This document shows, piece by piece, positions 32,437 through 52,868 of a DNA stretch of 64,000 nucleotides. The notes under the pieces were generated by a model. The model saw only the letters and a program-made list of their open reading frames with translations. It did not search any database and was not told the DNA's origin. How positions within the stretch are numbered: position 1 is the stretch's first letter; every line of letters starts with the position of its first letter. Origin of the DNA: Gonapodya prolifera JEL478. Its lineage: Eukaryota > Monoblepharomycota > Monoblepharidomycetes > Monoblepharidales > Gonapodyaceae. The position numbers and the translations under genes are program-made. Location: contig KQ965731.1 in NCBI GenBank assembly GCA_001574975.1, forward strand, positions 1,485,737 through 1,549,736, written 5' to 3'.

Positions 32437-35400
32437 ATGCCGCGGTCTCTGGCGCTACTTGTGCGACTGACCACCGTCGTCGTGGCGGTCGCCGTTGCAG
32501 CCGTGGCGAAAGCGACTGCGACGCCGCGGGACCCTTCTGCACCAGGGATGGATGTGGTAGCTGTCTACGACGGACCGGATTGCGCCGGTGAGTGGATTTT
32601 CTGGCGGCTTCGAGTGGAATCGCGCAGCTTGCGGGCACTGGGCGCTGACCGTCTTTTTATTTCCGCTTATGGTAGGTGTGCCCTCGGCCATCCATGTCCG
32701 CTACCTTCAGGGGAAAGAGTCGGCGTCGGATGGTGAGTCGACCGTGGGAGAAGATCCGACAATAGTTGGAACAGCGAATGATCCTCGTTGTCCGTTCCTG
32801 TTCCGCAATTGTTTCCCCGTTGGTGTGGTGGCGTCTCTGTCGGCGGAAACCTCCCAAACCCTGCCACCAAACAACAAACTATGAAGCGCGAGAATGTCTG
32901 GAATCAATATCTGAAGCACACTGCAGCGTGGGCCTCGTTTCGCAAGGAGGCGCTCTCAGTCGGCGGAGAGGGAGTCGAATGAAGCTGACCGAGGGAGTGG
33001 TGAGTCACACGTACGCAGTAGCTTTGAGCTCAAATGGAGCCTAAAATAATCTACCTTTAGGCCAGTAAACGCATGGCGTGCATTCGCCAACAGCCCCTTC
33101 GGTCATTTCTGGCGTCGCTCAAAGTTGCCCATATTGGCAGCACTTCTCCGCCATACACTGCCACGCTCACCTACAAACCGTCGCAGCAGTCTTCGGACGT
33201 AGCGCTGACGTCGGATGACTTCCTTCCGACCAATGTAGCTTCGGAGTGCCATCCATCACAAATCTCCACCGTCTCGTTCCACCTCGCCGATGATGTTTGC
33301 CGACCCCACTTTGCTGATTTCGAAGACACCGCTCGACTTGCTGCTATGGGATGGGTGCGCAACTCGGCGGAAGTCGGGTGGGATGTGTATGCGAGGGAAG
33401 GATGCGACGGTGCCAGCTTCATGAAAGGTGGCAAGTACAGCTATGGAGTGTGTGCGGAAGAAACTGGACTTCAGGGATTCGGAAAGCAATACGTTACGCA
33501 CAAAGTGTGAGTGGAGTGGTGCGGACGCCATTGTACTTCACATCTTCAACTGATTGTTCGTCACACGCCCTTCAATTACTTCTAGAACCGACAACTTCCT
33601 TCTGAACCTCTCCCACGGTACCATACGTGGTGTTGCGGATGTCATTCAACGTTTTATTCGAGTGCATGCTTCCCCATCGATTAACATCGCCTCGCCTACC
33701 TTGAAGAAGAGACAAGCCCCATCAGGAGGTCAGCCAGAGAAATAAACCAACTTCAACTCTATTCGATTTTCATCATTCTTTTAAACAGATCCAAGTCCTC
33801 CCGCAACGCCACCGCCGCCACCTCCACCTCCACCACCTCCGCCTCCGCCACCTCCCCCGCCACCTCCTCCACGTAAGTTAAATGATAGCGGATTCAATAC
33901 CGAGAATCAATTGGACTTACATCCCGTTCTCTTGTAAAGCCCCACCGCCACCACCGCCACCTCGTGAGTTTCTTATATTTGGACCTGTCCATAAAACCTC
34001 GTAACATTGCCGTTTCCGCCGTCTTCATGACATCATCATGGACATCGCGTTTAGCTCCTCCCCCACCCCCTCCACCACCGCCTCCTCGTGAGTTAAAGTT
34101 CAAACGGTTACCTCCTTCACCCAGTCTGACCCCTCCTGTTTGTTCCCCTCCCTTGTAACTTCGTATTTCCACGCAACCTTTCAAATCCCTTGATCTGCCT
34201 AAAGCCCCACCACCACCACCTCCTCCCCCTGCCACTCCTCCTCCTCCTCCACCCCCAACGCCACCTCCTGGTATGTTGTGGTCTGAGTTCCCTGTTAGTT
34301 CCTAGTGGAGCTGAGCTCTCATCTAACAGCTCCCGCACCTCCTCCCCCTCCCCCTCCTCCTCCTCCCCCNGCCGCCACCCCCAGCGACTCCCCCACCAGC
34401 GACTCCCCCACCAGCTGCTCCGCCGGCGGCTGTTCCGCCACCAGCTGTTCCGCCTCCAGCAGTCCCACCGCCAGCAGGACAGCCGCCTCCTGCTGCCCCC
34501 CCTCCCGCTGCACCAAATCCAGCACCTCCCTCAGGCGCCCCTCCCGCTCCTGCGGCGTCAGAGGCAGGAGCTGCAACAAGTGCAGCTGGAGCCACGACAC
34601 AAACAGTAGCTCCTTCCCCATCCAGCGGAGGTGCAACGCGGGCGGCAGCGGCATTATCCTCCCCTGCATCCACGACAGACGCCAGCGGAGTCGCGGGCAC
34701 AGACTCGAATGGAGGGTCGAACTCTTCTGCTGGTTCTGGCTCGGGCTCTCCATCGGCGATGCGCAACGTACCCGCCATTGTTGGTGGTATCACGGGTGCG
34801 CTTGCCGCTGCAGTGATCCTTGGGGTCCTGATGGCGACATTCGTCCGCTCCAGACGTCGCGCCGCGAAACGTCGTGCTCATGCCATGTCAGGAACTCCGC
34901 GACCCATGAGTCAAATCGACCCCACAAGGTGGCCGGCCACTCCACGCACCCCCATGAGCACCTCAAGTCCGATGACGCCGGGAGGTGGAGACGGAAATCT
35001 TTCCTCGCCAGGCGGTTGGACTACTGCCTCATCCTCTTTGGGCTCCAATGACAGTGGATTCCTCATGACACCACCTTCGGCCAGGGCGGGTCCAGGCGTC
35101 GGCTTTGGAGATTTTGGCACAGGCAGGAACTTTGGAACACAATCCCAGCTTGCCACGTCCCCGACAGGGATCGGGATGAGGCAATCCTATTCCGGCGGCT
35201 CTCTTTCTCGTAGCGCCGCTGGGGTATTTTCTGATGCAAGCATCAGCAAGATGCTGCGGGTACCATCGCCTGAACCTGGCGAGGAACCACCGGAGGAGGT
35301 TCATGAAACGTACGTCGCCAAGAAGGCGTACAGGGCTCAGTTGCCGGATGAGCTGACCGTCGAAGTGGGAGATCAGGTGTTTGTTGACGTGGTGAGTGCA

Positions 35401-35560
35401 TTGAATAGTTTTCGGCACTTTCCTTGAAGTTTAATCGGCCACGTGTTCGCAGCTCATGCCCGACCAGTGGGCTACAGGGAAGAACCTTCGTACAACTCTA
35501 ATCGGATTTGTGCCTATGGTTGTTCTCGCAAAGGAATCTCAAAGTCCTGGAAGGAACTGA
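32437..35560 (+). CDS. Single-pass membrane protein with polyproline stalk and cytoplasmic SH3 domain, copy 1
   Basis: The signal peptide is MPRSLALLVRLTTVVVAVAV, then an extracellular domain with several Cys residues (exons between 32600 and 33650, e.g. AAMGWVRNSAEVGWDVYARE and SYGVCAEETGL). Next comes a long polyproline stalk made from mini-exons, then an Ala/Pro/Ser/Thr-rich mucin-like stretch. The membrane helix is NVPAIVGGITGALAAAVILG followed by RSRRRAAKRR, setting the C-terminus inside. The C-terminal SH3 domain reads YVAKKAYRAQLPDELTVEVG, DQVFVDV and, after an intron, LMPDQWATGKNLRTTLIGFV with PMVVLAKESQ. An N at 34370 in a C-rich run lies where the frame shifts by one, most likely a miscalled homopolymer. 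The exons at 32600-33000 are the least certain. Likely a cell-wall or adhesion sensor by inference. Confidence 0.7.
33789..34270 (+). other. Array of symmetric phase-1 polyproline mini-exons
   Basis: Exons at 33789-33872 (84 bases), 33940-33963 (24), 34055-34087 (33) and 34205-34270 (66) are separated by introns of 67, 91 and 117 bases, with a further 59-base intron before the next exon at 34330. Each intron has GTAAG/GTGAG/GTATG at the donor and AG at the acceptor, and each interrupts a codon after its first base. The 24- and 33-base exons encode 8 and 11 prolines and nothing else; the others are nearly pure proline with a few Ala/Thr. Confidence 0.75.
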
Positions 35561-36259: not shown

Positions 36260-38211
36260 ATGCGCCGTGGGAAAATGGGATCTCTGCGAATGCGGATTCT
36301 TCTGGCAGTTGTCGTTCTGGTTGCCGGTTTCGGGGTCGTCGTTGGAGTGGAAGGGGCGCCAAATGGACAGGTGGTGGCTGGTGAGCATCCAGCGTTCGAG
36401 TACAGATATTGGAAAGGACAAACGGGGAGAAATTGGCGGGGTTTGCGGAAAAGAGGAGAAGGTGTGCGAGATTGGCGGACCAGGATGCACGGAAGGAAGG
36501 GAAGACGGCTCGACGAACAGAGAAGCGGATACAGGAAACACTGCGATCAAGGCTAGGAATATTCTCCTCTGTGCAGATTGACTTTGAGCTTTCCTACCTG
36601 TGGTCTATCGCATTCTCATTCTCGTTCTCCTATCAATTGGTACTTACAGACAACCACCGGTTGTCTCCTTTGCACGCCTTTAAATCATTGATGAGGAGGT
36701 CTATCGGTGCTCTATCTCCTTCTACCTCTGGAGAGCAGATTCACCTACTGCGACGTCAGAACGCAAACGAAACATCCACAGCCAGCCCCACTGCCGCTCC
36801 AACTCAACAGGCGTCTACTTCCTTCTCTCCCAGTCCGACACCTCAACCTACTTCTGCCTCATCTTCTTCTCGCGCCGCATCCTCCACTAGAACGTCGTCG
36901 AACGTTCCAACACAAACAGCCCCACAAACATCACAGACTACTGCGGCTGCGCAACCAGATCCCACCACTTCCCAGGATCCAGGAAACGCAAATACGACAC
37001 CAGTACCTGACGTTACTTCGGACGTGGCTCCAACAACTACCGGGGATGCACAGACCGACTCTTCCACAACATCCACAACCCGAACATCAAGTTCCACCGC
37101 AAAGGCTGCTTCCACCGCTTCTTCGAGTTCATCCAACAATAATAAACCAGCGGATCCTTCGAACTTGGCACCTATTGCGGGCGGCATTGCAGCCGGAGCA
37201 GTTGCTCTCCTCGTTGGTGGCGGCCTCCTCCTTTATCGTCGACGCCGCTCTTCCTCGTCCTACTCTAGCGACTACGATATGAAGCCTAGCCGTCGCTGGG
37301 AAACTTCGGAGGAGCGAGATATCACACCTAAACGCCGCCCCACTCTCCAACCCATCCGCTCACCCTCTCTCGCTGCCGCACCACACCGCCGCAACACTCT
37401 CGCCAATGGATTCGCCCAACCCTTTGACAACTCCGTCACTCTTGTCACAGCAGGAGGGCAGGTCCTCCCCGCCACCGATGGCATGTACGCTTACCCCCCC
37501 AGCATGACCTCTTCCGCTGGTGGACTCTCCCAAAACATGTACTCGTACTCGGCGCCCACCACCCAACAGGCAATGTCTCGTGGCCAATCTCTCCGTGCGC
37601 CCTCGAGAACTTCGCGGAGAACATCATCGAATGGCAGCGTTGGCGGCGTTTCGAGGATTTCAGATGTGTCGCGTGGCGACCAGGCGTTAGTTTCGGGAAC
37701 CCAGGTGGCGCTGGCGCCGCAAACTGGGGTGACAGTGATTCAAGAGGTGAGCGATACGAGGCGACACGGAAAGATGGCACAATAAGGGACCGACGTTTTG
37801 TAACTGATGATACCATCTTAGACCTACTATGCCCACACCCAATATGTAGCCCAACTCCCCGACGAGCTATCAGTTGACCAAGGCGACCAGGTCTACGTTG
37901 ATTGCGCCATGCCCGACGGATGGGCCCGGGGTGAGCAGTTCGTTTTCCCTTCCACACCTTCTAGATCTAAGCCCGTCTTTCCAGCGACCAATGCGCGCAC
38001 CCGACAGATCGGGTTCATCCCCATGGTGGTGCTCTCCCGCACCCCTGCTGCGCCTTCGATCGACGTCCAGGGCCCCGCACCTTCCCTGGCTCTTCCCGGG
38101 ATGGGCGGGGGGATGCCCTTCTCGGGCGGCTTTTTGGCGCCAAGCGGAAGTCTCGCGAGCGTGGTGCCAGCCAGGAACGAGAGTATGAGGCTGGGAAGTC
38201 GTGGGTTGTAG
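36260..38211 (+). CDS. Single-pass membrane protein with cytoplasmic SH3 domain, copy 2
   Basis: The first exon encodes MRRGKMGSLRMRILLAVVVL and further hydrophobic residues ending ...VEGAPNGQVVA, a signal peptide. A long intron (about 36381-36650, ending TTACAG) joins it to DNHRLSPLHAF and a dibasic LLRRQ, then about 130 Ser/Thr-rich residues (mucin-like). The membrane segment is PIAGGIAAGAVALLVGGGLL followed by YRRRRSS. About 170 cytoplasmic residues rich in Ser/Arg lead to the SH3 domain YVAQLPDELSVDQGDQVYVD, and after a 54-base intron WARATNARTRQIGFIPMVVL. Its SH3 shares LPDEL(S/T)V, GDQV(Y/F)VD and IGF(I/V)PMVVL with copy 1, so the two genes are paralogues in tandem. The protein continues with a Gly/Pro/Ser tail to the stop at 38211. 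Likely a surface sensor by inference. Confidence 0.75.
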
Positions 38212-38487: not shown

Positions 38488-40060
38488 TCAGTACGTGGGT
38501 AACGGCCCCACGTGGCCCCTCATGCATGCAGACACAATGTTATAGTAGTTACGCTGGTAGAACAGGCTTCCAGGAGCAATGGGGGGAAATTCTACCACTA
38601 GTGCGTCAACTTTTTTACGGTAAAGAACCCAGGCCGGCCAGAAAACTAGATGCATGATTATATGATGTGAGAATATGCTGGGAAACGATTATAACTCTGC
38701 AGAGCACTTACTGATCCAGAGACACGATAAAACGCAGAGAGTTTTGACGAGACAGCTGTCAGTCGCCATTGCCAGACTGTTCGGGGCCTTGGCAGTGACG
38801 CGGTCCTTGTGTGTTGGGTATGTTACGCTTTCCAACAGGACAACGATGGAAGGGAAGCTTAGGAGCGGAGGGACAGTCGATAACGCGTACCTTATGTGTC
38901 CCCCATACCCCGTGCTTCGAACTGCAACCACAATGGCCGGTGTGAGCTGATCAAAGTCCCACAGAACCTGTTTGCGCAAATGAATCTCTTTGAGAAGGTT
39001 TTCTGACCTCGTGAATTCGCCGAGCACTTCCGCAATGGTTTTAGTTGGGACAACGCGAAGCGCGCGGGTGGGGTCGTAAGCTTGCAGGGCCACCATTTGT
39101 GACCATTGTGGACTTATATAGTTTGAAGCATCCATCATGATGTCGAAGTCAGTGACGGTGCGCTGGTGTTCTTGATGATTGGTGTGGTGGTGTCCGTTAG
39201 CGTCCTTGTCTGTGTGGAAGAAAAATGATAAACATCGAGGGACGTAAGCTTTCGACGCGGATACCAGCAGGTGTGTGTTTCGACCCAACGTTCTGGAAAG
39301 CAGGGTGAGGTTGGTGGTGCAGAGGCAAACGCGGATAGCGCTCACCAATATGTGATCCCATGACTCGTACGATGAGTTGTGGGCGATCCTGGGAGTCACG
39401 TAAGCTTTGAGAGGAGAGAAAAGGAAACAAATGCTCACCGAGTAACTGCAGCGAGAAAGCTCGCACGCATTGTTTCACGTTCACAGCCAAATCAAAAAGA
39501 GGACCCACGTCAGAAAGTACTTCAGAAGCTCATTAGGGTCGAAAGCCGTATGGACATCGTAAGTCCGGACGTCTCCGTCTCCATCCACTCTAGTTTCAGC
39601 TGTACTGGGGCCTCCAAAGTCGGGGCGTTGATCCCATCTCATCACAAGTTCTTGTGGAACTTTGCTCATATCATACACTGCGACTGGTAGTTGCACAACA
39701 TAAGTCGCTCCCCCTCCCAGAACTGGTTGAACCTGATTAGATGGCAAAGGACCGCCTTGCGGGACCTGGGAGGGGGGTGGAGCCACGTTCGCTAGAGTGT
39801 GCGCTTTTTCGTATGAGGGTGGAGCTGGAACGTTGGCCGGTGCCATCAGTGCCTCGGGAGGTAGTGGTGGTAGAGAAGCATGGTGAACATCACTGTGATC
39901 GGCAGTGTAGCTGTGATTTTTCGCCCTCCCTTTAGATTGTGTAATTCTTCGCTTAGGGATTAGAATCGCGAGATACTCACGCGACAAGGGGAGGTGCAGA
40001 TACTGGAGATACGCTGTACGCAGTTGTTGGGGAATCCCCCGGGAATGACGGTGTGGACAT
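38488..40060 (-). CDS. Uncharacterised PPxY/membrane family, copy A
   Basis: Starts MSTPSFPGDSPTTAYSVSPV, then after an intron YTADHSDVHHASLPPLPPEA with a PPSYEKA motif (PPxY-type), a Pro/Gln-rich segment, VYDMSKVPQELVMRWDQRPD, DVRTYDVHTAFDPNELLKYF, a middle domain with VTDFDIMMDASNYISPQWSQ and IHLRKQVLWDFDQLTPAIVV, then SCLVKTLCVLSCLWI. After a final intron comes IFWPAWVLYRKKVDALVVEF, then PPIAPGSLFYQRNYYNIVSA, ending at 38488. The last part forms one or two membrane helices. It aligns over most of its length with copy B at 43137-44738, including intron positions. Function unknown; PPxY sites often bind WW-domain ubiquitin ligases. Its start is only about 20-90 bases from the divergent AAA gene. 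Confidence 0.7.
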
Positions 40061-40079
40061 CTGGGTGTGATGTGATACG

Positions 40080-43000
40080 ATGACCAAAGTCACTGCGGCC
40101 CCACACCCCTCACCGAAAATCCATTCGAAACATGCTGAAGCTTTGTCCCTGATGTCTTCGAGCTGTGTATTGCGTCTCCTCAATGATGCCTCGCTTGCAT
40201 CAGCATCTGGCGCGGTGACGATCCCAACTGGACACATTTCCAAGGAAGATATTCTGCGACTCGCCCTCTTCACAACCTCCGACCCTCTTGGATGCACTAA
40301 TAGCGAGAATTTGAGCACACAAAAGGGATTCACTGATGTGAAATCATCGCTTTCGACGCTTAATCCGGATGCGACTGTTCTTGCTCGAACGTGGGGTCTT
40401 CTCTTGAAGGTTCCTGTTTTTTCCCAGGACGATGGCAAACAGGGTTTCATGAAACCACAACTGTTTATTCGCGGACGTGAAAACTCGAACTGGTCAAGGA
40501 AACTTGCACTCTTCAATGACCAATCCAGGGAAGGGCACGAGGAGGGCACTTATGAACACATGTTGTTGGAGCTCAAGCTTCTTCCTGAAATGATCGGCTC
40601 CAACTCCGCAAAGGCGCGGTCTGCAGCGGGAAAAGCACGGGAATCTCGAGACGATGCCGTGGAAGTTCTGTTCTCGAAAGAAGACATGCGCGCTCTAAAG
40701 TTCAAACCTGAGCTCAAGGTCCGTAGGCAATAGCTCATGTAATGTGTCCATTTCAAATACCAACTGCATTCGCTTCAGCTCTCTTGCCTCCTCATACCAT
40801 TCGCAAGGCTCCACAGAGTGTCACGGATCACCGTGTCTCCGCAGAATCCCCCACCGGCACACCCACTTCTTCCCTCATGGCCCTTCTTTCCGTTCACTCC
40901 CCGCCGAATTAGGGAAGTGCTGGTCGGAAAAGTTGTTGCCAGAGGATTGGCAGTGAAGATCCATGAGTGCGACGTTCGGAAAGCGAAACAAAGAAGCTGG
41001 GGAACGACTTCTTTCAAACGAGAACTCTCCATGGGCTCGGACTTATGGACGTTCAACGTATCTGAAGTATGCTGTGACACGAGCGACCGTTCCAGTCCCG
41101 ATGAGAAGCCCCTTTTTGCACTTGTAACAAACAACACCATCGTGGAACTCCAGGCTCCGGATGCAACTCCATTGAATGGGGAATCTCTACAAATCTCCAT
41201 TGACGACGATTCACTCGATGCCAAAGTGTCTGCCGTTGGAACCTACGATGGGGGTGAACGGTGAGAGTTCCCCTGCGAGGCATATTGATTTCGTCTTTTT
41301 TTTTTATTTTCGAATTTTGTGAACGGTAGATTCTTTCACCTAATCCGGCTCGCCCACCTACAATCATCGGCGCACCTGTTTGCCCGCCGCATCTCAGTCC
41401 CTGCACCGACCACAATTCTGCTCTCCGGGCCACCTGGCTCGGGCAAGTCCAGACTGTTGCACGTCGCCTCGCAAGCGCGTGGTGTTCGCCTTGAAACTAT
41501 CACTGCTGGGTCAGTGTTTGCGGCGGGACAGGCCGGATTTGTCGGTCCCCGGATTGTCGCCGCTGTTCGGCGTGCCATCGAAGTTCACAGCGTTCGCGAG
41601 CCGGGAAGAACACCTGCATCCCTTATTGTGGTTGCTCTAGACCATGTTGAATTACTGGTTGGCTCTCGCGCCGAGGCGGTGGCGACCACGGCTGACCCAT
41701 TTGAAGGGGATGAGGACGCGGTTGATGGGTTCCTCGAAGCGGCGATTCTCGTGTCCCGTTCCCACGAGCGACGGAATGAGGCGCTGGGAGCTGAGAGCTC
41801 AGACATTGGACCACGTGCTTTATTGGTTGGGCTCACCAGCACTGACCCGGGCAAGTTGCCCGCACGAGCGCTCGAGGTGTTTTCGCAGTCTGTCGCGCTC
41901 GGCCCGCCACCGACGCATCAATCGCCCGAATCTCTCCGCTCGCTGACTGACGAACCTGCAGCGGCTTTCGCAGGGCGGAAGGTGCCAGTGCACCCCACGT
42001 TGGAACCGCTAGTCCGCTCCCTCAAAGCGTCACCGATTCTGGCCAACTTCCGCATGGCACCCCCGCTCGGTGCCATGTTTTACGGGTCCTCCGTACCCAC
42101 CACCTTGAGCGACGATCTGGCCAGCGCTCTTGACTGGCGTTGCGCAAAGGTTAGATTGACAGATCTCGTCAAGGGGGAAGTAGGCGCGGGTGAACGGGCG
42201 GTTCGAGAAATATTCGGCCGATGTGAGAGGGAGGGCGGAGGATGGATTGTGTCGATGGAGGGAGTGGATGCGGTCATACGTTCGAATACGATGGGTGGGC
42301 AAGGAGTTGGGGACAAGGTGGGGACTTCTCTGCGGGGGGTTCTTGTCTTTCCTTGCTATCAGAGCCAACGACTGATTCTTGCGTTGCACGTCACGATAGG
42401 TTCTCACCCAACTTCTTGTCGAGTTGGATCGACTTGCACTCAAGGGCATGCGCCCAAAGACGAGGACATCGAGCGCAGGGCGTGCGACACTGTTCGTCGT
42501 CCTTTCCACCGATCGGCCGTGGGACATTGACCCAAGGCTGCTCCGGGCTGGTGAGTGTACGAGCGAGGACGCTCACCACCGTCACTGACGAACGATGTAC
42601 ACACAAACAGGCCGGATTGATCGACACGTGTACGTCAGGCCTCCGACAAACGAGCAACTCCACGCGCTGCTTGCGTCTTCCTTCCCCCCACTATCGCCCG
42701 CCACGCCACCGCCGACGCGCTCACCCTCGAGTCCCTTACCAGCTCACCCGGACGTGACTGCCGCGTTGCCAAGCATCGTCGAGCACATGTCGGGTCGTAA
42801 CGAGGGGGACGTGCGAGAACTTGTGCGAAGGGCCAGAGCTGGCGCGGTCCAGCGGGTCGTCGCCAAGGCGCGGCGAGGTGGCGGTGGCGGTGGCGTGCGT
42901 GTGGGAGATGGAGATGGCGGCGCGAAGGAGTTCTCTGGAGGTGAATTGTTGAAAGCCGCCCTGGAGGCGGCGATGGTGGAGGTGGAGGACGTGGAGGCGG

Positions 43001-43136: not shown

Positions 43137-44738
43137 TCAATACGCTACGTTGACTCCACACCGGCGAGCAAGCACCGAATTGATAATATTGTAGTAATTT
43201 CGCTGATAAAAGACACTCCCGGGAGCGACGGGGAGGAATTCCAGGATGAGCGAGTCCACCTTTTTCCTGTACATGAGTTTCAGGGGCCAGAAGATGATGC
43301 ACAGACACGTGAGGACGCAGAATGTTTTCATGAGGCACGAGTCGGCCACGCGCGTGAGGACGTTTGGTGCTTTGGCGCTGACCTGAACCCAAAACCATCC
43401 GAGATGAGTATTGGCATGGGTGGGAAAAAAACGACACTGACACCGACACTGACCCCCCAGGCAACACACAAAAAAAAAAAAAAAAAAACACCAACCTTAT
43501 CCCTACTCGTCGGATACGACACCGCAACATGCCCGCCATACCCCGTCGACCTCACCGCGGCGACCAGCGCGGGCGACAACTGGTCATAGTCCCACCTGAC
43601 CTGTTTCCGCATATGGATCTCCTTCATCTTGTTCTCGGAGTGCGTGAAGTCGTCAAGGACGTCGCGGATCCATTTCGGTGGGGCGGGAGTGCCGCCGGCA
43701 GAGTCTTGGAGCGCGACGAGGGAGGACCATGCGGGTGAGAAGTAGTTGGATACGTCCTAGCGGGGTTTGTGAAAGTGAGAGCGTCACACGCATGGAAAGA
43801 GCTTCGTGATCGGCACCGCACCCAGCACACACCATTCGAAAGTCGAAGTCCGTGACCGTGCGCTGGTGCTGGACCACGCGGGTGTGCCGATGGCCCTGAT
43901 TGTCCGTGAAATGTTCGACGGTGGTGTAGTGTTCAACGTGCGTGCCGCATATCCGCACAAACACCGTTGGCCGATCGGCGTACGTCAAAAAGTAGTGGAA
44001 CAACTCGTCGGTGTTGGTTGCTGTGATGGGAGAGTACGTTTTGACGTCCTGGTGCACGCCGCACGCCGCATGCCGCACGGCGCATGGCGCATGGGAGGGA
44101 GATTTAAACGTGGGGTCGGTCGAGTGTGGGATCGAAGAGGTGACTTACACCGTCACTGTTGTGTTGGATTTCCACCACGCTGGGGTCGGTGAATATGGGC
44201 TGTTGACCTTGCAACATGACGAACCCCTTTGGGACGATCGAGATGTCGAATATTGCAGGCGGCTGCGACTGAAAGCTTGGAGGGGCTTGAGCTGGTACTG
44301 GTGCTGGTGCTGGAGAGGTCGGGGCTTGAGCAGGTGCGGGAGCAGGAGCAGGAGGAGGCGGAACCTGGTGCCCATCGTAGCTCGGGGTGCCTGGAGGTGG
44401 AGGGAACGGAGGTGGCGCGAACTGAGGCGCTGCAACTAGGGGAGGAGGTGCGTGTGCGATCTTGACCGCTTCCTCGTACGAGGGAGGGGGAGGCAAGTTT
44501 GGCGGGGCCATCACTGCCTCTGGAGGGAGCGGGGGAAGACCTGCGATGTCGGGTAAGGACTGCAAGTAGTTCTGGTAGCTTGTGCGGAGGGGTCAGGTGT
44601 TTGCATGCATGCGTGCGTGGACACAAAGGCGGCGACGTACTAGATGAGGCCATTGCCCGCGGACGGAGCGGCAGACGGCGACGGCTGGGTGAGCGTTTGC
44701 GGCGAGCCTGCGTCTGGCTGCGGCTTCTTTTCGTCCAT
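43137..44738 (-). CDS. Uncharacterised PPxY/membrane family, copy B
   Basis: Starts MDEKKPQPDAGSPQTLTQPS, then YQNYLQSLPDIAGLPPLPPE with PPPPSYEEA (PPxY), a long Pro/Ala-rich stretch, and AIFDISIVPKGFVMLQGQQP. VKTYSPITATNTDELFHYFL and DRPTVFVRICGTHVEHYTTV follow, then VTDFDFRM, DVSNYFSPAWSSLVALQ and IHMRKQVRWDYDQLSPALVA. After an intron containing a T19 tract on this strand comes KAPNVLTRVADSCLMKTFCV with a hydrophobic stretch, then YRKKVDSLILEFLPVAPGS and RNYYNIINSVLARRCGVN, stop at 43137. Homologous to copy A across the gene. The stop lies within 45 bases of the convergent AAA gene. Likely one or two membrane spans near the C-terminus; function unknown. Confidence 0.75.
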
Positions 44739-47270: not shown

Positions 47271-48560
47271 CTAAGCTGTTACCGCTGCCACACCCGCACC
47301 CGCACCGTCTCTCGGCGGACCCGCAATCTCCTCCACAAAGTCCACAATCATATTAATCACTTTCGCATCTCGCAGGATCCGCTGATGACCCAACCCCTCC
47401 GTCTCCACATACCGGAACTCAAACTTGGCAAACTCGTCGTCCGCGCCACCTGCACCCTCACGCGCCTTCTGCCGCTCATCGACGATTGCTTGCGCGACCG
47501 CGACGATGTTTCGGGAGTTGGACACGTTGACTTCCTTGTCTGCGCTGTCGTGGATGAAGAGGACGGGCACGTTGATGTTCTTGATGTGTTGAGACGTCAC
47601 GATGGTTTTGACGTCCACTGGGAAGTGGGAACGGTCACGTGAGCTTCTTGTCCACTTCCCCTCCTCCACCTCCACCCCCCCAAAAAGTGAACTCACAATC
47701 TGCGGTCCGTTTCTGCAACTCGGGCAGCAAGAGCTCGGCCGCCGCCGTCCCGGAAACACCGACCATCTCGCCAAACAAGTTCAAAAAGTCAACTGCTGAA
47801 TCCTGTGTCCCCACAACCGCGATGCGTTCCAGCTTGTCAAGGTACGGCGAGCGGCGACACAGTGACGCAAAGAAGATGCTTACGAGGGCGCCCATCGAGT
47901 GCCCGATCAGGATGTTGGGGTGGATACTGAAGAGCAAGAACAAGAATAAAAACCGAGGTGAAGGTCAAGGTCTGCCCGGTTTGTCATCGGGACTTGTTCT
48001 GCGCGAACTCACCTGTTGGCGCGTATCAAGGCCTCGAGGGCGTTAGAGAAGGTTACGGGATTGGCAATGTCGCCGGGCGAAGCGCCGCATGCGGGCATGT
48101 CCAACGCAATGACTCTGTAGCCGCGAGCGGCAAGAAGGGGTATCAAGGCGTAGAATTGCGTGGCTGCACTCGGGAAGAGATGGGACGGTGAATGAGTCAG
48201 CTACACAGTAGGCCAGGTTGTGTCTTGGCAACCATTGTGTGACACACCTCGACCCGAGTATCCATGAATGAGTACCGCTGTCCCCTTCCCACCATCTTCC
48301 GGTCCGTACTCGTATCCTTGAAGCCAGGTCTGGCACTCGTAGGACGTACTGGGCGTGAAGAAGTCCTCGGTCATGGGTGCCAGCTCGAACTTCTTCACCC
48401 GCGCGAGCGCCTCGGACTGCTTCTCCGCCTCGGGTATGGGCCGTTTCTGCGTCTGCCCGAACATGTCCACGACCCGTTTTGCAGTGTAGTCGGGGAAGAG
48501 ATAGCCCATGACGCACATTTGCGCCCGGAAGAGTTTCTGCGCGAGTGTTAGTTCCACCAT
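47271..48560 (-). CDS. Alpha/beta hydrolase, copy 1 of three
   Basis: MVELTLAQKLFRAQMCVMGY starts the gene; CQTWLQGYEYGPEDGGKG leads into AVLIHGYSGRG, the oxyanion loop. Then QFYALIPLLAARGYRVIALD and ILIGHSMGALVSIFFA with a canonical G-x-S-x-G nucleophile elbow. NVPVLFIHDSADKEVNVS gives the catalytic Asp and VETEGLGHQRILRDAKV the His. The protein ends in an Ala/Gly-rich tail at 47271. Less similar to copies 2 and 3 than they are to each other, but the exon layout is the same (introns near 48200, 47980, 47690). Likely a small-molecule or lipid esterase. Confidence 0.8.
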
Positions 48561-48994
48561 GATGGGGGAGTTGTGTTGGGTGGGGGTGTGGTTTCTGGAG
48601 GGGATGTGGCAACGATGGCAGGCGCTCTCAGTCTTTTGCGATAGGAATCGACGATTGCTGCATATGAAACCCCGGTGCTTTATTCACTTGGGCCGAACAG
48701 TTCAGAGCTCTTATACAGCATACTGGCGTGCGTCCTCAAACAAGGAGACGGTGGCTGCCAGCAAAAGAATGATCCGGAATAATGAAATATAACTGGAAGT
48801 ATCTGCCCTTGACCCCTCGTCAGTGGACCGGCACGTAAATGGTGGGGGAAGACCAAGGCAAGAGAGAAAATATTCCGGTCAATATATTGGACATGTATAT
48901 ATACCCCTCAAGGGCCAAATCTAATGAATTCTACGCAGTAACATTGTCCCGCTCTGTAATTCTAGAGGGCAGAAGAACATCATCTCTCCCTGCA
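48561..48994. other. Spacer and 3' flank of hydrolase copy 2
   Basis: Contains the start (about 48911) of the duplicated unit shared with 51040. No extra gene supported. Confidence 0.5.
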
Positions 48995-50458
48995 TCACAG
49001 CATCGCAGCATCACCTCGCATCGTCCCCACTCCTGCGGCCTGCGGCTTTTGAAGGAACCTTATTCCACTCTCATCCACAAAATCCAACACCATCTCCACA
49101 ACCTTCGCATCCACAAGAATCCGCTTATGTCCCAGCCCCTCTGTCTCCACGTACCGCAACTCCAACGCGCGTGCGTGCCCAGACGAGTTTGCGTTTTTGT
49201 CGTGGCGGTGCGCGACGGACAGTTTCTGCGCCGACGCTGCGATGGTTCGCGATGCAGAAACGGGGACCTCTTTGTCCTTGGAATCATGCACGAGTAGAAG
49301 GCGTGTGGAGAGCTTGTCGAGCATACTCGATGTGGTGAAGTCGACGGAAACTGAAAAGGAACGAAAATCGAGTCGTAAGACGTGAAACCCAACTCTTTCG
49401 TTGCGGGATGCTCCAGAAGTGCAGCTCATCCGACACTCACATGTATCTCCCATCCGAACCTGCAACTCTTCCCTCAACAGCTTACTGGCTCTAGACCCGC
49501 CGACGCCAACGGCATTGCCGAAACCGCTCAAGGCATTCAGGAGCGATTCGGGCGGGCTGATCGCCACCAGACTGCTCAGTCGGTCGAGATACGGCGAGCG
49601 CCGGCAGTAAGCGGCAAAGAGCAGGGCAGAGCCGGCTCCCATGGAGTGCGCGATGATGCTTGACGGGTGGATGCTAGAATGCGGCATGTGCAAGTGAACG
49701 GGGTATTGTACGTGTCCAAGTGAAAAAATGAATGGGAGGCGTCGAACATCAACCACTTAAAAGTCCGCGCACGCACTCATTAGCCCTCACAAACGCTTCC
49801 AGCGCATTCGCGAACACGACTGGGTTGGAGTACACTCCCGGCGACCCCCCACATCCCGGCATATCCAGCGCAATGACGCGGTAGCCCCGCTGGACGAGGG
49901 GTTGAAGAAAGGCGTGGAATTGTAAGGCTGTGTTATGGTAGAGATGTTATGAGCACCATGAAAATTGTACCATGAACGAAAAAGAGAATGGCACTTGGCA
50001 GTGGCAGTACGTACCTCGCCCTGAGAATCCATGCACGAACACAACGGTTCCTTTCAGGGTCGCGGTGGGGGTTTCGAACTCGTACCCCCTGAGCCACGGC
50101 GGGATGTCGAAGTTTGTGCATGGCGTGTCGAACGCGCGGGAGAGAGGCGCGAGCGGGAAGTTGCGCACGCGAGCAGAGGAGTCGCATAGACGCTCGACTT
50201 GGGGGGCTGGGATGCTGGGGGGGGGGGGATGGGGGAGGAATAGAGGGGCATCGTGCGGGCACGAGCATGCCACGGAATATCAATCAAATCTTTTCAAAAT
50301 CCCACTCCGATACTACAAGACCAACAAGAGACTCACCGGTACGTCCGCGAAAACAGCTCCACGACTCTTCGGGCGGCTGCTCGTGGAAACAGTTGTGCGA
50401 AGGCGTACATGAACCACCGACCGAGCTGGAACCTGTAGTACGATATGACGGCCCCCAT
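48995..50458 (-). CDS. Alpha/beta hydrolase, copy 2 of three
   Basis: Starts MGAVISYYRFQLGRWFMYAF, an amphipathic or membrane-leaning N-terminus not in copy 1. TVVFVHGFSGRG is the oxyanion loop; QRGYRVIALDMPGCGGSPG and SIIAHSMGAGSALLFA follow, the latter with A-H-S-M-G in place of G-H-S-M-G. RLLLVHDSKDKEVPVSASR carries the Asp and VETEGLGHKRILVDAKV the His. It ends QAAGVGTMRGDAAML. Four to five introns. Lies in the 2.0 kb duplicated unit A and is the closest relative of copy 3. Confidence 0.8.
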
Positions 50459-50669
50459 TGTGGAGGGGAGTGGAGGGAGCGGTAAAATAAGAGCGGTGAG
50501 GGGAGAGGAGAGAGGCCACAGAGGTGGGATCTGGCGAGTTTTATGCGTGCGCATCGGTGGGAACAATTGCATTGTTGCGGAGTGGTCTGGAGTGGTCAAA
50601 CAGAAATGATATATTTATGGGATGATTTCACAGATCGCCGATTTGCGCGGTGCCTTTTTTTTAGAGCAC

Positions 50670-50917
50670 ACGTACACGTGTGAAGATGTCGCGCCGTGCG
50701 ATTGAGAGACGTCCAGGGGTGGTACAACGGATGCGTAATATTAATACGATGATTTCACAGCTCGCTCGCTTAACGGCACGCAATTTTCTCACGACTGCAA
50801 GTGCAAAGATGATTTGCAGTGAGGTTGGAAAGCCACACCGCGTTTCGTTGAGTGTTTTGCGTTGATTGCCATTTCCAGAATGTCTATTGCTCTGGCACAC
50901 ACACGGTCAATACCTCG
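50670..50917 (-). promoter_or_regulatory. Conserved upstream block of hydrolase copy 2 with CACGTG E-box
   Basis: Sequence acgtacacgtgtgaagat and the following 230 bases align with 52869-53104 upstream of copy 3. It contains CACGTG at 50675-50680, about 215 bases before the ATG, a bHLH-type site. It could be conserved for regulation or simply reflect recent duplication. Confidence 0.5.
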
Positions 50918-51154
50918 ATCCTCTTCCCACCATTCGTCAATACCTTGTTCCACCTATTCTTATGTGCCCTTAATCAGGGAGAATGGAGGCTGAATCAGAA
51001 GTACCACAAAATTATTATATTATTGATATCCATCATCGGGCGGCCAAAATCTGATGAATTTAATGTAGTGGAATTGTCCCGCTCTGTCATCCTGAAACGC
51101 AGAACATGTGCATCTCAGCATCAGGTCCTCACCCCTGCCGGCCACTGCTGCTAC

Positions 51155-52677
51155 TTATTGGTCCCGCGTCTCATCAACAAAATCCAACACCATCTCCACA
51201 ATATTCGCATCCACCAGAATGCGCTTGTGTCCCAGCCCCTCTGTCTCCACGTACCGGAACTTCAACTGTCGCGGTTGCCAAGAAGAGTTTGCGGTTTCGT
51301 CGCGGCTGTGTTCTTGATCAACGACGTTCTGCGCCGACGCTGCGATCGCTCTCGATGCCGAAACGGGGACCTCCTTGTCCTTGGAGTCGTGCACGAGTAG
51401 GATGCGTGTGGACAGCTTGTCAAGGAGACTCGATGTGGTGAAGTCCACAGAAACTGAAAAGATCAGACGTCAACCCCATCTTTTTCGTTGCGGGATACAA
51501 CATGCAGCTCATCACACGCACACGTATCTCCCATCCGACCCTGTAACTCTTCCCTCAACAGCTTACTGGCTCTGGATCCGCCGACGCCCACAATATCTCC
51601 AAACCCGTACAAAACATTGAGGAGCGATTCGGGCGGACTGATCGCCACCAGACTGCTCAATCGGTCAAGGTACGGCGAGTGCTGGCAGTAAGAGGCAAAG
51701 AGAAGTGTGGAGCTGGCCCCCATGGAGTGCGCGATGACGCACGACGGGTTGATGCTGTAAATGCGACGCGTTTGAGAGTGAACGGGTGCGAACGAAAGGG
51801 TTCCCGGGTGGTGGGACGTATGAGTGAACGGGTGCGAGTGAATCAGTGCCGGGGGCGTTTGGAACGGGGGGGGGGGNGGGGCGGGATAGTGAGTGAACGG
51901 GAGCGATTGACCGTGCAAGTGAGCGGGAGAGAGCACAGTGCAAGTAAGCTTGTGAACGGGGTGTGCATAACCGCAGCAAAGTTTGCTCAACGCACTCGTT
52001 AGCCCTGACAAAGGCTTCCAGCGCGTTCGCGAACACGACCAGGTTGGCGGACTCTCCCGGCGACCCCCCACATCCCGGCATGTCCAGTGCAATCACACGG
52101 TAGCCCCGTTGCGCGAGGGGCTGAAGAAACGCGTGGAATTGCGTGGCTGTGGAGAGGGTGGGTTCCAATTTCCATGCGCATGAGTACCACAGGAAGAAGT
52201 GTAAGATGAATAAAGAAAGAGAAAGGCACTTGGCAACACGTACGCACCTCGTCCCGAGAATCCATGCACGAACACAACGGTTCCTTTCGGGGTCCCCACG
52301 TTTTGGGGTTCGAACTCGTACCCCTTGATCCACGGCGGGATCTGGAAGTTGGTGCACGGTGTGTCGAACGCGCGAGAGAGAGGCGCGAGCAAAAAGTTGC
52401 GCACGCGGGCGGAAGATTCGCACAGGCGCTCGATTTTGGGGGGTGGGATGCTTGAAGGGGGAGGTTCGGGTTGGGATTGACACCGGCCGATTACATACCA
52501 ATCGAGTCTTTTCCAAATCCCACATCAATGGTCGTAGACCAATAAAAAGGCTCACCGGTACGTCCGTTGGAACAGCTCCACGACTCGCCGGGCGGCTGCC
52601 CTTGGAAACAGTTGGGCGAAGGCGAACATGAGCCACCGACCGAGATGAAACTTGTAGTACGATATGACGGCCCCCAT
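51155..52677 (-). CDS. Alpha/beta hydrolase, copy 3 of three
   Basis: Starts MGAVISYYKFHLGRWLMFAF, nearly identical to copy 2. TVVFVHGFSGRG, QRGYRVIALDMPGCGGSPG and SCVIAHSMGASSTLLFA follow, again with A-H-S-M-G. RILLVHDSKDKEVPVSASRA gives the Asp and VETEGLGHKRILVDANI the His. It ends DFVDETRDQ, shorter than copy 2 because the C-terminal tail has diverged. The intron at about 51760-51995 is longer than in copy 2 and carries purine-rich repeats and the G tract. Confidence 0.8.
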
Positions 52678-52868
52678 TGTGGAGAGGAGTGCAGCGGAGC
52701 GGGGAGAAAATGAGAGGGGAGACGGGGAGACGGGAGAGGGGAGAGGCCACAGAGGTGTACCTGATGGAGGGAGGGTCTTTCGCTCGGAAGAATAATTGCT
52801 TTGACAGGTGCCAAAACTAAACAAAGATTTGCACCATTTATAAGCCGGTATGCGCGCAGCGGTTTATT

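Follow-up and report, generated by a model that had tools for sequence, protein, structure and literature searches.

Tropoelastin is a secreted, cross-linked polymer of animals, and the hydroxyproline-rich pherophorins, which are algal matrix proteins, form polyproline-type rods outside the cell, as the stalk described here would. Elastin and titin have a symmetric-exon linker, and the stalk is best read as a variant of that design. Like the stalk, tropoelastin has many phase 1 exon borders and extracellular segments in which proline and glycine, with other residues, are abundant (excerpts of PMC3458006); unlike those of the stalk, its exons are not pure proline. Homology to elastin or titin is not something that sequence of such low complexity would settle. 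In the PEVK and I-band region of titin, spring length is set by exon inclusion (excerpts of PMC11040099), as is proposed for a stalk tuned by splicing; titin is intracellular, however, and undergoes documented splicing under the control of RBM20, whereas the stalk has no known splicing variation. The AGL proteins of Glomeromycotina are, like the stalk proteins, proline-rich fungal surface proteins with fast-changing repeats, but according to sections of PMC8786786 their genes are small and have one or two introns, placed close to the signal sequence, and gaps between putative AGL orthologues are not codon multiples, unlike the whole-codon changes in the paralogous genes examined here. Trains of polyproline mini-exons were not named among the matches listed from the open-licence full-text literature.

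The locus lies in the window, the whole stretch of 64,000 nucleotides of Gonapodya prolifera JEL478 that was analysed, and its features are collected in Table 1. It probably encodes (at a rough probability of 0.72) a constitutively spliced, rigid, extracellular juxtamembrane stalk in a type I single-pass membrane protein with an SH3 domain.

Table 1. Features of the stalk gene, in positions of the window.
Feature	Positions	Strand	Description
First coding exon	32437-32587	+	Start codon, signal-like peptide (by eye); 151 nt, ends in phase 1
Exon 2	32676-32732	+	57 nt, phase 1-1; borders by eye
Stretch without fixed exon borders	32733-32999	+	Two open frames; by eye
Ectodomain exon	33061-33506	+	No relatives found
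Ectodomain exon before array	33586-33728	+	Ends in phase 1; donor GTCAGC
Mini-exon 1	33789-33872	+	84 nt, phase 1-1; DPSPPATP...P
Array intron 1	33873-33939	+	67 nt; donor GTAAGT, end AAAG
Mini-exon 2	33940-33963	+	24 nt, phase 1-1; 8 prolines (split codons included)
Array intron 2	33964-34054	+	91 nt; donor GTGAGT, end TTAG
Mini-exon 3	34055-34087	+	33 nt, phase 1-1; 11 prolines (split codons included)
Array intron 3	34088-34204	+	117 nt; donor GTGAGT, end AAAG
Mini-exon 4	34205-34270	+	66 nt, phase 1-1; proline with A and T
Array intron 4	34271-34329	+	59 nt; donor GTATGT, end ACAG
Exon 5	34330-35391	+	Remainder of proline stalk, linker, transmembrane segment, tail, start of SH3; 3' border by eye
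Predicted transmembrane helix	34771-34845	+	PAIVGGITGALAAAVILGVLMATFV, then RSRRR; from translation, by eye
SH3, first part	35314-35391	+	PF00018
Last exon	35453-35560	+	Remainder of SH3, stop codon; borders by eye

The four consecutive proline mini-exons of the original prediction, each phase 1 at both ends and followed by a GT-AG intron, were confirmed in their coordinates, as were the two that consist purely of proline. All four are multiples of three with equal phase at both ends, which is the layout of a symmetric-exon linker. The expectation that mini-exons could be skipped without a change of frame also held: each of the 16 inclusion subsets stays open, and the residues that precede the single N at 34370 then number between 13 and 82. 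The donor GTRAGT is present at three of the four array introns. The proline frame is fixed from both sides, by the phase 1 end of the upstream exon and by the downstream transmembrane frame after 34371. When the window was scanned on both strands for exons of 15-150 nt that run from AG to a GT[AG]-type donor and are at least 60% proline, the array locus was the sole match.

Edges of AG and GT are easily placed by eye in low-complexity DNA, and the N at 34370 breaks the assembled frame. It might be supposed, then, that the array is one unspliced low-complexity stretch or a decayed locus whose GT and AG borders arose by chance. This is highly improbable: the retention of any single array intron brings in an in-frame stop, and GC content is 37-47% in the array introns against 71-79% in the mini-exons. 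The excess of donors across the genome and the codon-wise evolution of paralogous trains, both described below, argue against it as well.

The genome (47,557,447 bases in 207 contigs) was searched with a phase-1 donor pattern of five proline codons, then C, then GTRAGT, and with the reversed pattern as a control. This combination of polyproline and phase-1 donor gave 20 matches, three of them the array in the window, versus two for the reversed pattern; the corresponding figures were 17 versus none for phase 2, and two versus one for phase 0. On the acceptor side, phase 1 was the sole phase in excess (88 versus 35), with 37 versus 44 for phase 2 and 25 versus 80 for phase 0. Poly-threonine or poly-alanine followed by a phase-1 donor was absent, as were the reversed patterns, but this control is weak because such tracts are much rarer than polyproline: tracts of at least five codons numbered one for poly-threonine, four for poly-alanine and 21 for polyproline in 107,905 bases covering the window and five loci.

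The regions around the donor matches were merged into 29 segments and scanned for symmetric exons only, with trains counted by hand. In 10 of these segments, that of the window included, two or more symmetric polyproline mini-exons follow one another as a train. The mini-exons of these trains are 15 to 84 nt long; a 12-nt candidate in C9 and a 9-nt one at C1:252k are less certain. Phase-1 trains are found in the window, at C1:252k and on contigs C30, C102, C35 (two) and C58 (three), and phase-2 trains on C9, C59 and C121. The phase-2 trains open with asymmetric exons (phase 1-2, or 0-2 in C9), and asymmetric exons also stand alone at other loci. A candidate microexon of 9 nt lies at 1577-1585 on the minus strand of locus L015; its flanking introns are about 60 and 62 nt long, and with the split codons it encodes three prolines. 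Clusters of transmembrane genes with polyproline stalks, phase-2 donors and mini-exons lie at C121:36500-52200 and C59:272900-281100. Since other predicted surface proteins of this genome are built similarly, the split polyproline stalk is very probably a genuine design rather than an accidental reading.

For the stalk of the window itself no paralog turned up, and the comparative tests consequently rest on other genes. Three pairs of paralogous contigs, which may include haplotypes, were aligned (C35/C58, C30/C102 and C59/C121). Splice sites coincide within the pairs, save for one C58 acceptor with two possible sites 12 nt apart, and the number of mini-exons is equal in the compared stretches of all three. 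Length differs in five of the eight exon pairs measured, by 24, 12, 3, 18 and 24 nt, all multiples of three; with the alternative C58 acceptor the first exon difference becomes 36 nt instead of 24. Paralogous introns differ in length in four of five pairs, by 2, 8, 1 and 12 nt, three of which are not multiples of three. A codon-by-codon alignment of the paralogous mini-exons in the CCN frame places 19 substitutions at codon positions 1, 2 and 3 in the numbers 1, 2 and 16, and the ungapped pair of 72-nt exons alone gives 0, 1 and 4. Change in the paralogous trains is codon-wise, as predicted for coding proline exons separated by introns. An NCC frame, which would make the array a serine-, threonine- and alanine-rich stalk, was rejected because both flanking frames read proline and because substitutions in the paralogous trains fall at the N of CCN. 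Array anatomy, recurrence across the genome and the codon-wise evolution of paralogs were taken together, and the mini-exons are therefore very probably real.

The origin of the trains was approached through intron similarity and intron phase. The six pairs of array introns in the window show no similarity (z from -1.9 to 1.25), whereas paralogous introns gave z of 2.8, 7.1, 11.0, 14.1 and 15.1 in the same test, for which the baseline was 222 pairs between unrelated arrays (99th percentile 2.72, maximum 3.24). Two of 24 within-array pairs reach the 99th percentile, namely introns 1 and 2 of C9 (3.00) and a pair at C1:252k (2.72) in which the longer 'intron' includes the candidate 9-nt exon. 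Array intron 3, the sole intron searched against the genome, matched only itself, and an introner-like mobile intron was set aside on this ground.

Phase tells more for duplication: all 11 non-seed introns share the phase of their own train (rough p of 3e-4, with genome donor phases as weights), in a test that is prone to selection, as the trains were hand-listed from the symmetric-exon scan with paralogous copies left out, and that counts only introns between two proline exons of a train; in C9, C59 and C121 the border ahead of the first proline exon has another phase. Such constancy favours the spread of exon-intron units, or in-register exchange between CCN runs, over independent insertion. 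The original prediction had named exon duplication as the likely source of the array; phase constancy within trains supports this, the dissimilar introns of the window do not, and duplication is left as a plausible origin. Because array introns mostly lack similarity, any duplication would mostly be too ancient to leave a visible trace. An alternative, which concerns origin and not function, is that introns were inserted repeatedly into a single long polyproline exon. It seems somewhat unlikely: independent insertions should mix phases, as the 11 non-seed introns do not, even though the window introns are unlike each other, array intron 3 has itself as its only genomic match and each intron is flanked by proline codons on both sides.

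The gene around the stalk is predicted to encode a type I single-pass membrane protein with a cytoplasmic SH3 domain, the signal peptide and transmembrane orientation having been read by eye from translations. The SH3 domain (PF00018) scores 23.3 bits, just above the Pfam cut-off of 22.9. For the ectodomain there was no Pfam match, a protein search yielded 446 candidates with none at E 0.01, and a search of the genome returned the ectodomain itself plus one match at E 0.49. The donor at 33729, which closes the last exon before the array, is weak. The N at 34370 lies inside exon 5, with proline read on both sides of it in different assembled frames; counted as one base, it leaves the upstream and downstream anchored parts out of frame, so the length of the exon 5 stalk is unreliable, and since the frame is anchored on both sides the N was taken as a gap or error. 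Single-base N occur at seven positions of the window (19732, 34370, 51877, 57455, 57567, 57619 and 57705); runs rich in C or G hold three of these.

Runs of proline form a stiff polyproline-II rod of about 0.31 nm per residue. The protein would consist, in order, of a signal peptide, an orphan ectodomain, a polyproline stalk, one transmembrane helix and a cytoplasmic tail with SH3, the stalk being spliced from the four symmetric phase-1 mini-exons and the start of exon 5. At 0.31 nm per residue, the stalk up to the N, with its 82 residues, would be about 25 nm long. The mini-exons are most likely always included, and the length of the stalk would shift mainly in evolution, through whole CCN codons gained or lost inside exons, while the introns between stalk exons hold one phase throughout.

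The original prediction had instead pointed to a linker tuned by alternative splicing, with the mini-exons as cassettes whose regulated skipping gives stalks of varied length. Such use is unlikely. The array introns are 59-117 nt long and their splice sites mostly near consensus, whereas longer flanking introns and weaker sites are more typical of skipped exons, and exon skipping is comparatively low in fungi (parts of PMC6142364); moreover, several phase-2 trains begin with an asymmetric exon, of phase 1-2 or 0-2. The open frame of every subset is what a cassette array would need, symmetric trains are also present in other genes, and skipped exons tend to be shorter, short exons being skipped more often across eukaryotes (the same parts of PMC6142364). 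On balance, alternative splicing of the stalk may be possible but is not favoured, and constitutive splicing appears the likelier mode.

Other proteins of the genome would share this architecture. The cellulose-binding module CBM_1 adjoins polyproline exons at C9, where there is a train, and at C142, where there is a single long proline exon, and an EB-like module below its Pfam cut-off lies on the membrane side of the stalk at C30; these modules would each be spliced into one protein with the stalk. Radial_spoke was above its cut-off in the genome and, together with the fungal CBM_1, was taken to indicate a fungus having flagellar genes. Of the 29 segments, 20 were put through a crude hydropathy scan, and in 11 of these it picked out a transmembrane segment next to a basic flank, among them three of the seven train segments scanned (C9, C59 and C121); C1:252k and C30 also have one such segment by eye. 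The genes on C35 and C58 seem to encode type II proteins that start with the membrane segment; their C-terminal domain matched DPBB only below the Pfam cut-off. The common role of the stalks would be that of a stiff extracellular spacer. A more far-reaching proposal, which we regard as quite unlikely, is a fungal class of surface proteins with combinatorial stalks, in which differential inclusion of phase-locked mini-exons, perhaps down to 9 nt, sets the distance of a binding domain (cellulose-binding, Cys-rich, or the ectodomain of the SH3 receptor) from the cell surface at each life stage.

Several neighbouring loci of the window were recorded. The next gene (36261-38100, plus strand) is an apparent tandem relative with a signal-like peptide, a Ser/Thr-rich stalk, a transmembrane segment and an SH3 match at 37819-37938; its stalk lies in one open frame, with no split into mini-exons. 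On the minus strand, by eye, two groups of reading frames (38689-40089 and 43653-44592) have PPPPSYE and QRTVTDFD stretches in common and are likely duplicated genes, and several similar hydrolase-like reading frames stand in tandem at 47271-52816.

Genes with polyproline mini-exons are likely to come out broken in gene predictions and assemblies, and the trains offer a test system for the evolution of introns and microexons in low-complexity coding DNA. If splicing varies, the array would be a simple ruler for cell-surface reach. Within this one fungal genome, polyproline interrupted by introns that keep to a single phase within each train would constitute a design for a rigid extracellular spacer, and such split spacers would span several apparently unrelated families of surface proteins.
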